NCBI GenBank assembly: GCA_949948735.1
Contig: CATLGV010000013.1
Location: forward strand, 1 to 64,000
Length of the DNA: 64,000 bases
From: an uncultured Lachnospiraceae bacterium
Lineage (GTDB): Bacteria > Bacillota > Clostridia > Lachnospirales > Lachnospiraceae
Direction: 5' to 3'
Shown: piece by piece, positions 240 through 35,151 of the stretch
Layout: each line of letters opens with the position of its first letter
Numbering within the stretch: the first letter of the stretch is position 1
The notes under the pieces: model-generated
Database searches by the model: none
What the model was told of the DNA's origin: nothing
The model's input: the letters and a program-made list of their open reading frames with translations, nothing else
Made by a program: the position numbers and the translations under genes

Positions 240-1757
240 TCACCCCGGCAGGCTCCCCGCCACGCACAGCGCGCCCCAGCCAGCCTGGGTATTGGGGACC
301 TCCCGCTCTCCGCGCAGCGGCTTTGCCCCCCGTATCAGATAGGCCTTGAGCTTTTGTCCGAACAGAAACGGGTCGTTCCCCTTCACGATGCCCCACTCCA
401 TCAGCAGCGCGGCGCTCCCGGCGGCAAAGGGCGCCGCAAAGGACGTGCCCGACACCCGCTCATAGCCGCCGCCCACCGTCGGCGCCGCGATACCCACGCC
501 CGGCGCGACCAGATCCGGCTTTGCCTCCGCAACCCCGAAAAGCCCGCCCGTGGTATCGGGACGTCCCTGTGCATAGCGGTACACATAGCCCCTGCCTGAG
601 AAATCCGCATAGCTGCCGAGATTAGCATCGTAAGCGCCCACCGTCACCGCACGGTGCGCGGTGGACGGTATCGTTATCGTCATCTCCGGCGTGGGCAGGA
701 AGAACCCGGTTCCGTTATTGCGGATAGCGTAGCTTGGCAGATAAAACCGGTACTCGCCCGTAACCGTGCGCACCGGCTCCAGCTCAAAGCGCCACACGCC
801 GCTGTTGATGTAGCTGCGCCGCCCGCTGCCCGTGGGAAGCATATCGATAAAAACCTCCTGGCTTGCACTGTAGGGCAGCGGCTCGCCCAGATAACACAGA
901 AGCTCCGTCTGCTCCAGCGTGCGCCGTTCCGTCCCCGCCGCGTTCCGGTTCGATAGCTGCAGCAGCGCGCGGTCTCCCCCGGGCGACACGACCGTCATGT
1001 TGTAGACATCCTGATAATGCTTCCACAGCTGCACGCTCAGCCCCGTCTCGTAATCGGCCACCGCAAGCTCCACGGCCGTATTCGTCCTGGCTATACCCGC
1101 CGTATGCCCGCCCGAGCTTCCCTCGTTTCCGCTCCCTATGATAATCGCCGTCCGTCCGATTTCCGAAGCATTATCGATAAAGCGCTCCAGTAGGGAGTTG
1201 CCCAGATGATCCCCGTAGGTATTGCCAAAGCTGATATTGACCACCACCGGCCGGTTCAGCTCTATCCCCAGCTTGACCGCATAGTCAATACCGCGCATCA
1301 GCTGTGTCGTTCTGGGAAAAGAGTCCGGCATCGGATTGCCAAGCTTAATCACCAGAAGCTCGGCCTCCGGCGCAACGCCGATACCGCTCCCCGCTGCGAC
1401 CCCGGCCACCGCCGTGCCGTGGCCCGACAAATCCAAAACAGGCACTATCCGCTGTCCGTTCTCACGGCCCAGCGAAAGTGCCTCGTCAATCATTTCCCGT
1501 GTGTATAATACCCCTTCCTGATAGCCCGGGGGCGGCAGCAGTCCGTTCTGCGCGTCCGCTCCTGCCGTCTGGTCCCATATCGCAATCAGTCTCGTCTTTC
1601 CGTTCCTGTCCGTAAACTCCGGCAAAAAGTAATCTATCCCGCTGTCCAGCACCGCGATAATCACACCGCGGCCGGTCAGATACGGCTCCCGCTGCGTCAC
1701 CTGCGGTATACAGGACACCTCTTTTGCGTAATCGTTGTTCAGAAAATCCATCCGCAA
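240..1757 (-). CDS. S8 (subtilisin-like / Csp-like) serine peptidase lacking an N-terminal prodomain
   Basis: Catalytic triad blocks AVLDSGIDY, DLSGHGTAVAGVAAG, VSGTSFAAPFAAG; protein begins at the mature-domain region (MDFLNNDYAKEVSCIPQVTQREPYLTGRGV). ATG at 1751 with GGCAGGAG RBS is the likely real start. Confidence 0.9.
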   Translation of the reverse strand: MRMDFLNNDYAKEVSCIPQVTQREPYLTGRGVIIAVLDSGIDYFLPEFTDRNGKTRLIAIWDQTAGADAQNGLLPPPGYQEGVLYTREMIDEALSLGRENGQRIVPVLDLSGHGTAVAGVAAGSGIGVAPEAELLVIKLGNPMPDSFPRTTQLMRGIDYAVKLGIELNRPVVVNISFGNTYGDHLGNSLLERFIDNASEIGRTAIIIGSGNEGSSGGHTAGIARTNTAVELAVADYETGLSVQLWKHYQDVYNMTVVSPGGDRALLQLSNRNAAGTERRTLEQTELLCYLGEPLPYSASQEVFIDMLPTGSGRRSYINSGVWRFELEPVRTVTGEYRFYLPSYAIRNNGTGFFLPTPEMTITIPSTAHRAVTVGAYDANLGSYADFSGRGYVYRYAQGRPDTTGGLFGVAEAKPDLVAPGVGIAAPTVGGGYERVSGTSFAAPFAAGSAALLMEWGIVKGNDPFLFGQKLKAYLIRGAKPLRGEREVPNTQAGWGALCVAGSLPG

Positions 1758-1844
1758 ACTCCTGCCGTTTGTTCCTATATCATATGAGCAAATTCCGGCA
1801 AGGTTCCATTTCTTTAGAGAAGCGATAATTTCATCAGCGCTTCC

Positions 1845-23656: not shown

Positions 23657-23876
23657 TTAAACACTCCTTAATCATTAAAGTTATTTTATACTTTATTTTA
23701 GTTTAACTATTTCTTTTAATTTAACATATTTTTAAGAGTAGTACAATAATAAATATACACTTTTTCCATATTGCACGATTTTTCCCTTTTTTAATTAGGC
23801 AATAGTTCCAAAAGCCCCTTGCCGCACCCTTTTTAACCCACCGCCATATATTAGTAAAAAGGCCTTTGGAGGCCCC

Positions 23877-24167
23877 ATGCCCAATGCCAAGCTTGAAAAT
23901 CTCTTAAATCTTGCCCTGTCCGCCACTGCCGAAGAATTAGAAAAATCCCAGCTTCTGATGACCGGCTACACGCCCGCCGCCAGAAGCTGGGAATTAATTG
24001 TCAAATACCATGGCCCGCTCGAAAAGCTTGAGTCCGAGGTTATTCACATCGAACCGCTTATCAACAGCTATGCCATCGCAACTGTCCGCGAAGACTTTAT
24101 TGACGCCTTCGCCGACCTGGATGAAGTTGAATACGTCGAAAAGCCCAAACGGCTCTTCTTTTATTAA
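23877..24167 (+). CDS. Stand-alone S8-protease prodomain-like protein
   Basis: 96 aa ending EYVEKPKRLFFY*, matching the N-terminal prodomain pattern of clostridial S8/Csp-like proteases (WELIVKYHG...INSYAIATV...VEYVEKPKRLFF); GGAGG RBS just upstream of ATG; no protease domain follows. Confidence 0.75.
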   Translation: MPNAKLENLLNLALSATAEELEKSQLLMTGYTPAARSWELIVKYHGPLEKLESEVIHIEPLINSYAIATVREDFIDAFADLDEVEYVEKPKRLFFY

Positions 24168-24197: not shown

Positions 24198-25694
24198 CTA
24201 TCTGTATACGGCCGCATTCCAGCGCAGCTCGTTCTTGAAGGCCCGAATGTCCGTATCCTTGTCAATAACGACGGCCTCAATACCCATTGCGTCCGCCCAG
24301 TCGACCATCTGCTCCACCGTAAGGTCGTAGGAGAATGCCGTATGGTGCGCGCCTCCTGCCAGAATCCAGGCTTCCGCGCCGACCGCAAGATTCGGCTCCG
24401 GCGTCCAGAAGGCTGTTGCAACCGGGAGCTTGGGCATCGGCTTCTCCACCTTTTTGCAGTTTACCGCGTTGATAATCAGCCGGAACCGGCTGCCCAGATC
24501 CACCAGCGAAGCCGCCACTGCCGGGCCTGTCTTGGCGGTAAATACCAGCCGCGCCGGATCCTCGCGGTTCCCCATGGAAAGCGGGCATACCTTGATGGAT
24601 ACCGGGCCTTCCGCAATCGAAGGACATACCTCCAGCATATGCGCCTGCAAAATGCCTTCCCGTCCCGGCACAAAATTGTAGGTGTAGTCCTCCATAAAGG
24701 AAGTACCCTTCGCATCCTTCACGTTGGCGGCCATAATCTTCATCAGCCGGACCATCGCCGCCGTCTTCCAGTCGCCCTCGCCGCCAAAGCCGTAGCCCTT
24801 CTCCATCAGCCGCTGAATCGCAAGCCCGGGGAGCTGCTTTAATCCGCCAAGCATCCCGAAATGCGTGACAATCGCGTGATAGTCGCCTTCCTCCAGAAAC
24901 TTCTCCATACCAAGCTCAATGCCTGCCTGAACCTCCACATGCCTGCGGAACTGTGCCGCATCCCTGCCCTCTGTCAAAATCTCGTACTTACTGTAATACT
25001 CATCTGTCAGCGCGCTGACATCGCCCGCCGCAACGGCGTTCACATACTCAACCAGATCATTGACATTGTAGTGGTCAATCTCCCAGCCGAACTTTATCTG
25101 CGCCTCTACCTTGTCGCCCTCTGTCACGGCAACATTATTCATATTGTCGCCAAAGCGGCACACACGGATATGCGAGGACTCCATAATACCGACCGCCGTC
25201 ACCATCCACTGCGCAAGCTTCCGGATGACCTCCGGATTCCTCCAGTGTCCGACAACAATCTTGCGCTCAATGCCCATACGGCTCACAATATGACCGTACT
25301 CACGGTCCCCGTGCGCCGACTGGTTTTCGTTCATAAAGTCCATGTCAATCGTATCGTACGGGATTTCCTCGTTAAACTGCGTATGGAAATGCATCAGCGG
25401 CTTTCTGTACTCCTGCAGCCCCAGTATCCATGACTTTGCCGGCGAAAAGGTGTGCATCCAGGTGATAACGCCCGCGCACTCCGCATCCGCATTCGCCTCG
25501 TTAAAGGTCTTTCTGATAACCGCGTTCGTAATCAGCGTGGGCTTCCAAACCACCTCATACGGCAATAAGCCGGACTGGTTCAAGCCGTCCACGATCGTCC
25601 TTGAATGCTCCGCAACGTTCCTCAGGCATTCGTCGCCGTACAAATCCTGTGAACCCGTCGCAAACCAAAACTTGTAATTCTTTCCTGTTTTCAT
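24198..25694 (-). CDS. araA: L-arabinose isomerase
   Basis: N-terminus YKFWFATGSQDLYGDECL and characteristic core (CAGVITWMHTFSPAKSWI). Confidence 0.97.
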   Translation of the reverse strand: MKTGKNYKFWFATGSQDLYGDECLRNVAEHSRTIVDGLNQSGLLPYEVVWKPTLITNAVIRKTFNEANADAECAGVITWMHTFSPAKSWILGLQEYRKPLMHFHTQFNEEIPYDTIDMDFMNENQSAHGDREYGHIVSRMGIERKIVVGHWRNPEVIRKLAQWMVTAVGIMESSHIRVCRFGDNMNNVAVTEGDKVEAQIKFGWEIDHYNVNDLVEYVNAVAAGDVSALTDEYYSKYEILTEGRDAAQFRRHVEVQAGIELGMEKFLEEGDYHAIVTHFGMLGGLKQLPGLAIQRLMEKGYGFGGEGDWKTAAMVRLMKIMAANVKDAKGTSFMEDYTYNFVPGREGILQAHMLEVCPSIAEGPVSIKVCPLSMGNREDPARLVFTAKTGPAVAASLVDLGSRFRLIINAVNCKKVEKPMPKLPVATAFWTPEPNLAVGAEAWILAGGAHHTAFSYDLTVEQMVDWADAMGIEAVVIDKDTDIRAFKNELRWNAAVYR

Positions 25695-33824: not shown

Positions 33825-34154
33825 CTAAATTACAATAATGTCTTCTCTTTCATTTTCGGCAGGTCTGCCAAAATTCGTAACCTGCCCCTTGCCAATAATT
33901 TTATAAACTCTAATACTATCCTGCGTTGATGTATAGGCCGGCAGACGTTCCAATAATTCATTATACTTTTTCCTTGGTATCACCGCTTCGAAAGCGGACT
34001 TTTGTATCCGAAAACCATACCCTAATAACAATTTTGACAATCGCAGACGTTTCCTGTTATCGGCAATATCATAAATAATCAACACAAATACCCTGTCGTT
34101 TTCAGGATTATCGTCTATTTCAAAAAAATAACTTTCTTTTTCCAATCTGCTCAC
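33825..34154 (-). CDS. cas2: CRISPR-associated endoribonuclease Cas2
   Basis: VFVLIIYDIADNRKRLRLSKLLLGYGFRIQKSAFEAVI pattern; start overlaps cas1 stop (ATGA). Confidence 0.93.
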   Translation of the reverse strand: MSRLEKESYFFEIDDNPENDRVFVLIIYDIADNRKRLRLSKLLLGYGFRIQKSAFEAVIPRKKYNELLERLPAYTSTQDSIRVYKIIGKGQVTNFGRPAENEREDIIVI

Positions 34155-35151
34155 CTGATTTCTATCGGTTTGTATATTGAAAAATCCTCCTCCTCAATCG
34201 CTTTTACCAATGTATCCATCTGCAAAACAATTGCTCTGCGGAAGCTTACCGGATAATCAATATAACTTAAATATCTTACATCGGTCTGCAACTTTTTCTC
34301 CAGCTTCGACAAATACTTTTTAATCCCATTTTTCGTCAAATAACATCCCGGGACGTCCAAATCTGTCACAAAGTCCTCCTTTTGAATTTCATGCCCGTTT
34401 ATCATACTCATAACGGTAGAATCCACAATCACAGCACGCCATTCTTCCATCATATCACTCGCCAGCGTGGGGTGCTTCTCTTTATCCCTATGCATAAAAC
34501 CAAAATACGGATTTAATCCTTTCGCTTCTATTGCGCCATACAATTCATTCATCAAAACAGAATACCCAAGGCTGAGCATAGAATTAAATTCATCCCGCGG
34601 TGGTCTTTTGTTGCGCCCCCGAAATGTAAATTTCGGTTCCACCAGCACAGACAGTCCTTCAAAATATGCCTTCGCGGCCTGCCCCTCATACCCCATCAGC
34701 TCCGGTATTGCTTCGCAAAAAGAAATTTTCTCCCTGCATATCTGTATCATTTTCACGGATTCGTCTACGATAGCATTTCTCCCCCTTTCATACCTTCTGA
34801 GCACTACCATTTGATTCTTTAGCTTTGCACGCAGAATATTCCGGGAAAGTTTCAGAGAAAAGTCCGTTTCGTATAAAGCGCATTGCCGCCTCTGTCTCCT
34901 TGTATTGACATGCCCCGTAGATTGCAACCGGCCAAAATAACTGCCGCCCTTCGAAAAATAAGCTATAGATATGCCGCGATTAAAGCATTCCACAATGCAT
35001 TGCGTCGTAACCTGGGCCTTCCCCATAATAGTAATACCTTCAGCGTCTCTATGGGAACCGCTTTCCTCATCCCATCTGCGTATTTCACCACACATTGGTT
35101 GGACTCAATGCCTACCGTAGCATTGTTTTCATTTATATACAGCAGACTCAT
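34151..35151 (-). pseudogene. cas1: CRISPR integrase Cas1 with apparent -1 frameshift near 35040
   Basis: N-terminus MSLLYINENNATVGIESNQCVVKYADGMRKAVPIETL (ORF 34963..35151) continues only in another frame as EGITIMGKAQVTTQCIVECFNRGISIAYFSKGGSYFGRL (ORF 34151..35095); downstream catalytic regions (LMNELYGAI, GFMHRDKEKHPTLASDMMEEWR) intact. Confidence 0.85.

Follow-up and report, generated by a model that had tools for sequence, protein, structure and literature searches.

A free-standing CspB-type prodomain gene and a prodomain-less partner protease in an uncultured Lachnospiraceae genus

The closest described relatives of the genes studied here, CspB of C. perfringens (PDB 4i0w) and CspBA of C. 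difficile, carry their prodomain at the N terminus of the same polypeptide as the S8 protease domain and mature by autoproteolysis. In a stretch of 64,000 nucleotides from an uncultured Lachnospiraceae bacterium (positions 1 to 64,000 of contig CATLGV010000013.1, assembly GCA_949948735.1; hereafter the window), we find a homologous prodomain and a homologous S8 domain with an intact catalytic triad, meeting at the same junction, but encoded by two genes, so that no cut is needed. Such an arrangement has been made artificially. Removing the prodomain of CspB collapses the solubility of the protease, and co-expression in trans restores its folding with high specificity; the full-length trans prodomain blocks active-site labelling, forms without the last three to four residues do not, and C. 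difficile spores with a trans prodomain and a prodomain-less CspBA germinate (Adams et al. 2013, PMC3567191). As in that trans-complementation, the two parts in the window are separate genes split at the same residue; unlike the laboratory construct, the split is the natural state and extends across a genus.

Two other systems invite comparison. The lipase foldases (Lif) are trans-acting steric chaperones, each a folding factor for one hydrolase made from a separate gene; the window prodomain is likewise separately encoded, but fold and enzyme class are unrelated. Stand-alone propeptide-like inhibitors of the I9 family occur in fungi, plants and apicomplexans (PMC6993865). Like POIA1, yeast PBI2, Arabidopsis SPI-1, TgMIC5 and SUB1-ProM, the window gene specifies a small product with the subtilisin propeptide fold, but unlike them it is the partner's own former prodomain, fused to it in outgroup genes. 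Because the window pair corresponds to the parts of the Adams et al. experiment, divided at the same residue, we propose, with a probability of roughly 85%, that the free prodomain is an obligate trans-acting foldase that is retained as an inhibitor of mature CspB, and that it came from a gene split at the scissile bond.

The prodomain gene and its partner protease

The genes and their ribosome-binding sites are placed as follows.

23877..24167, plus strand: stand-alone CspB-type prodomain gene, 96 amino acids (aa), with a PF18425 match and genus-wide conservation
23868..23872, plus strand: Shine-Dalgarno GGAGG of the prodomain gene, read from the sequence
240..1751, minus strand: prodomain-less CspB-type S8 protease, 503 aa counted from the 1751 ATG, PF00082 E 3.8e-32
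1759..1763, minus strand: Shine-Dalgarno AGGAG of the protease gene, 7 nt 5' of the ATG at 1751

The 96-aa open reading frame (ORF) matches the Pfam family CspB_prodomain (PF18425) over positions 2-89 of the 89 in the profile (E 3e-30) and, with 104.5 bits against a curated cut-off of 25, the match is not due to chance. NCBIfam assigns the protein to the start of CspBA, and the ORF is the one CspB_prodomain copy found in the source genome. An AlphaFold2 model built on 54 sequences, of moderate confidence (mean predicted local distance difference test score, pLDDT, 74.5), gave 4i0w_A, the prodomain of C. perfringens CspB, as its top PDB hit (probability 1.00, E 2.3e-3, template modelling score ~0.5), with many subtilisin propeptides ranked below it; a model from the single sequence was too poor (pLDDT 54.7) and was discarded. 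By both sequence profile and fold, the ORF is a complete prodomain of a CspB-type S8 protease, which bears out a first-pass annotation of the window that had recognized the pattern of a clostridial S8/Csp-like prodomain and had named structural modelling as a check. PF18425 domains usually sit covalently N-terminal to a protease; this one has its own gene and ends in ...VEYVEKPKRLFFY, followed by a stop. As that annotation had also noted, the ORF has its own GGAGG ribosome-binding site, and no protease domain lies 3' of it in the window, its downstream neighbour being a convergent araA-like gene (24198-25694, minus strand).

What had been overlooked is that the S8 protease of the window (240-1757) lacks a prodomain. 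The listed start of its ORF is a TTG at 1757; we took the ATG at 1751, which has the AGGAG 7 nt before it, as the start, giving the N terminus MDFLNNDYAKEVSCIP. The NF040809 match of the protein spans model residues 80-516, and its closest PDB relatives, 9sj6 of C. difficile and 4i0w of C. perfringens, align with query residues 13-500, the similarity extending across the jellyroll insertion. The Asp/His/Ser triad is intact (motifs DSG, GHGT and GTSFAAP). Neither the Pfam and NCBIfam profiles nor inspection of the N terminus revealed a prodomain in the protease itself. The split proteases of relatives commonly have the N terminus MNDLEKAQSCI..., and in several of them a stop precedes the start by only a few codons, so no in-frame prodomain can be hidden there.

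The division between the two genes can be compared with the autoprocessing site. In profile alignments, position 94 of the stand-alone protein corresponds to residue 94 of the 96 in 4i0w chain A, and residue 93 to L63 of the C. difficile prodomain; combined with the published P3-P1 residues, YTS in C. perfringens and QTQ, ending at Gln66, in C. difficile (PMC3567191), this makes residue 96, the last of the window prodomain, the equivalent of P1. On the protease side, query residue 13 (numbered from the TTG, 240-1757) aligns with position 6 of 4i0w chain B, so that P1' is query residue 8 if chain B starts at residue 97, an assumption that fits the 96 residues of chain A. Most relatives have their start Met at P1, and the window protein has it five residues before P1'; where CspB proteases have a prodomain of their own and process themselves, the split proteases begin 0-5 residues before P1'. 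According to these alignments, the gene split falls at the scissile bond of zymogen self-cleavage. The end point is shared by relatives, as a survey suggested by the first-pass annotation confirmed: among the 33 stand-alone loci of named genomes, the stop follows the P1-equivalent residue in 29, and the other four have short tails.

Distribution, descent and promoters of the pair

Both genes are present in all 18 high-quality genomes (at least 90% complete, at most 5% contaminated) of the uncultured Lachnospiraceae genus, and of its 38 genomes altogether, 35 yielded the prodomain gene and 36 the protease. Where the two share a contig they are divergent in every case (16/16 genomes; the protease pointing left and the prodomain pointing right, or the mirror image); six genomes have ~0.09-0.2 kb between the two genes and nine have 2-10 kb, and the window pair lies 22 kb apart. 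The simplest account would be a compact divergent pair that insertions later separated. The reading frames around the genus prodomains measure 98-189 aa; outside the genus, the prodomain mostly lies inside frames of ~560-640 aa or ~1150-1200 aa. In the named-genome set, 33 best matches are stand-alone and 44 of the other 47 fused, the remainder being one that runs off a contig end (L170), one interrupted gene (L155) and one with a TAG and a frameshift (L140). A tree of 68 protease domains, in which some outgroup branches are long, groups all 30 split proteases as a single clade (100/100) that excludes the fused lineages, and one split event therefore suffices. The prodomain gene is under strong purifying selection: the median ratio of nonsynonymous to synonymous substitution rates (dN/dS) is 0.041 (42 pairs with dS 0.1-1, from pairwise codon comparison of 30 genus sequences), and the window copy differs from its nearest relative by a dN of 0.013 and a dS of 0.71.

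Inside the genus, we did not find close relatives with a full-length protease and deletion scars at the locus, the finding that the first-pass annotation had set against its own proposal; fused genes do occur in other genera, and one divergent fragment stands apart. This is an additional fused csp fragment (54% identity) at the end of a separate contig in a metagenome-assembled genome (MAG) of the genus (G025:C83:11-1510), which may be contamination or a second or ancestral fused copy, the data fitting either. Short PF18425 frames in other genera were considered as further stand-alone cases, and those checked proved to be contig ends or else fused genes with an interruption or a frameshift. 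In G062, a 96-aa frame beside a 464-aa frame lacks the prodomain C terminus and the protease N terminus, and represents a frameshifted or deleted fused gene rather than a precise split. A MAG of a sister lineage (L140:4747-6509) carries an in-frame TAG precisely where prodomain and protease meet, but its protease is frameshifted, and it was rejected as a working split; a split intermediate, a pseudogene and an assembly error are all possible.

Candidate promoters of one type precede both genes.

23826..23853, plus strand: sigma-K/E-like promoter, AC...N16-17...CATATATTA, upstream of the prodomain gene
1778..1804, minus strand: sigma-K/E-like promoter, AC...CATATGATA, upstream of the protease gene

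The element CATANNNTA occurs upstream of 19/28 prodomain genes (shuffle mean 2.4, maximum 7) and 16/27 protease genes (shuffle mean 1.3, maximum 6), against 12/183 other genes in the same loci, counts to be read with the caveat that the upstream regions are related by descent and so are not independent events. Aligned copies show an AC 16-17 nt upstream, and the combined pattern AC-N16/17-CATANNNTA is found in 14/27 prodomain and 12/26 protease upstream regions and in none of the 183 controls; the spacing had first caught our attention in the aligned copies and was counted afterwards, which makes this figure partly post hoc, and the smaller totals reflect a stricter removal of near-duplicates. 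Across both strands of the 64 kb the full pattern has four matches, two directly upstream of the pair and two that are not upstream of genes in their direction. We take the pattern to be the sigma-K consensus, which is close to that of sigma-E. The source genome has SpoIVA and sigma-E genes and a sigma-K-like factor of 270 bits, below the curated cut-off of 298.65. In C. difficile, the csp operon is sigma-E dependent (PMC3789822). CATANNNTA is also present upstream of 21/42 fused homologues and, as about half of these carry it, the split protease seems to have acquired a promoter belonging to that class.

Interrupted csp genes and other observations

The fused csp genes of other genera have recurrent break sites: after the DSG, near query residues 117-120 and near residues 178-185. 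Breaks directly after the catalytic DSG were seen in eight loci from different genera (L068, L069, L155, L157, L171, L175, L177 and L178), several with a near-identical junction peptide (DSGERVIIMSS, DSGEPVIIMSG), which suggests a common integration site beside the active-site Asp codon. In five genomes (G419, L065; G129, L070; G220, L074; G337, L071; G413, L073), the remainder of the csp gene lies ~6-20 kb downstream in the same orientation, and in G419 (L065) and G199 (L077) the break coincides with the start of a large serine recombinase (PF07508, PF00239). Judged by comparison with the skin, yin, vfbin and gin elements (PMC10747680), these interruptions resemble skin-like elements excised at sporulation. 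The window also contains CRISPR cas2 and cas1 genes (33825-35095, minus strand; PF09827, PF01867).

A probable trans-acting prodomain and its alternatives

Because the protease has lost its own prodomain at the matching residue, a folding factor or inhibitor acting in trans, as the first-pass annotation had proposed, is the best-supported reading of the free prodomain. In the scenario that we favor, the fused CspB germination protease of an ancestor of one Lachnospiraceae genus would have been split into two genes at the scissile bond, the small one giving a prodomain with the exact post-cleavage C terminus and the large one a mature protease without prodomain. Both would be transcribed in the sporulating mother cell from the sigma-K/E-like promoters, and the protease, like CspB proteases that cleave pro-SleC at germination, may have a role in SleC activation. 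The free prodomain would bind the nascent protease in trans and template its folding, and the autoproteolytic maturation step would no longer be needed. The prodomain would then stay bound, its C-terminal tail occupying the active-site cleft, and would inhibit the protease until germination, inhibition of a subtilase in trans being what the CspB experiments (PMC3567191) lead us to infer. Three points weigh against this scenario. The genes are up to 22 kb apart in the window, an arrangement of no help to co-translational assembly; some genus members have a second, ~580-aa Csp-like paralogue that could also use the prodomain; and the sporulation of these organisms is predicted from the spore genes that the genome carries.

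The targets of known stand-alone propeptide-like inhibitors generally keep their own propeptide, whereas the window partner no longer has one, the loss falling at the matching residue, and we regard it as unlikely that the prodomain is a trans inhibitor only, blocking this protease or other subtilases while folding proceeds independently. The idea draws on the I9-type propeptide mimics listed above, which act as inhibitors (PMC6993865), but the CspB catalytic domain folds poorly without its prodomain (PMC3567191).

It is less probable still that the prodomain serves another protease, such as the ~580-aa Csp-like paralogue, matches to which (36-40% identity) occur in many genus genomes. The paralogue has an N-terminal region of prodomain length of its own, none was seen in G000 (a genome 84% complete), and G013 and G027 gave the split protease only; moreover, it is the prodomain-less protease that co-occurs with the prodomain gene and shares its promoter motif.

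The first-pass annotation's alternative, a relic of a deleted protease gene, must be abandoned: the ORF does descend from a fused gene, outgroup genes being fused, and in the sister-lineage MAG L140 an in-frame TAG occupies the equivalent point, together with a frameshift, but a dN/dS of ~0.04, an end point conserved throughout the genus, a ribosome-binding site and promoter, and presence in 18/18 good genomes are not those of a relic. Equally hard to credit is a programmed DNA inversion that rejoins the parts into a head-to-tail gene in the mother cell, which would fit the uniformly divergent orientation (16/16) and the recombinase-bearing elements in csp genes of other genera, but each part has its own start, stop, ribosome-binding site and promoter, fusion would need read-through of a conserved stop, and no conserved inverted repeats were found at the break points of the six compact loci examined.

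No report of a naturally separate prodomain of Csp or of any other bacterial subtilase was found in the literature searched, which left most subscription journals outside. With an obligate trans-acting foldase as the function of the prodomain, the pair is probably a naturally occurring bacterial subtilase in which the former intramolecular chaperone is now a permanent trans gene product, with autoproteolytic maturation eliminated and a tunable, reversible lock on germination put in its place. If this is true, the dose and timing of the prodomain could be set apart from the dose of the protease, and the split would uncouple the folding and inhibition of a germination protease from its self-cleavage. 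It would become possible in these organisms to delete, titrate or tag the prodomain as a separate gene, and to test directly the question raised by the trans experiments (PMC3567191), the fate of the prodomain that is retained, both in dormant spores and when they germinate. More generally, splitting a gene at its autoprocessing site would be a way for evolution to make an intermolecular chaperone out of an intramolecular one.
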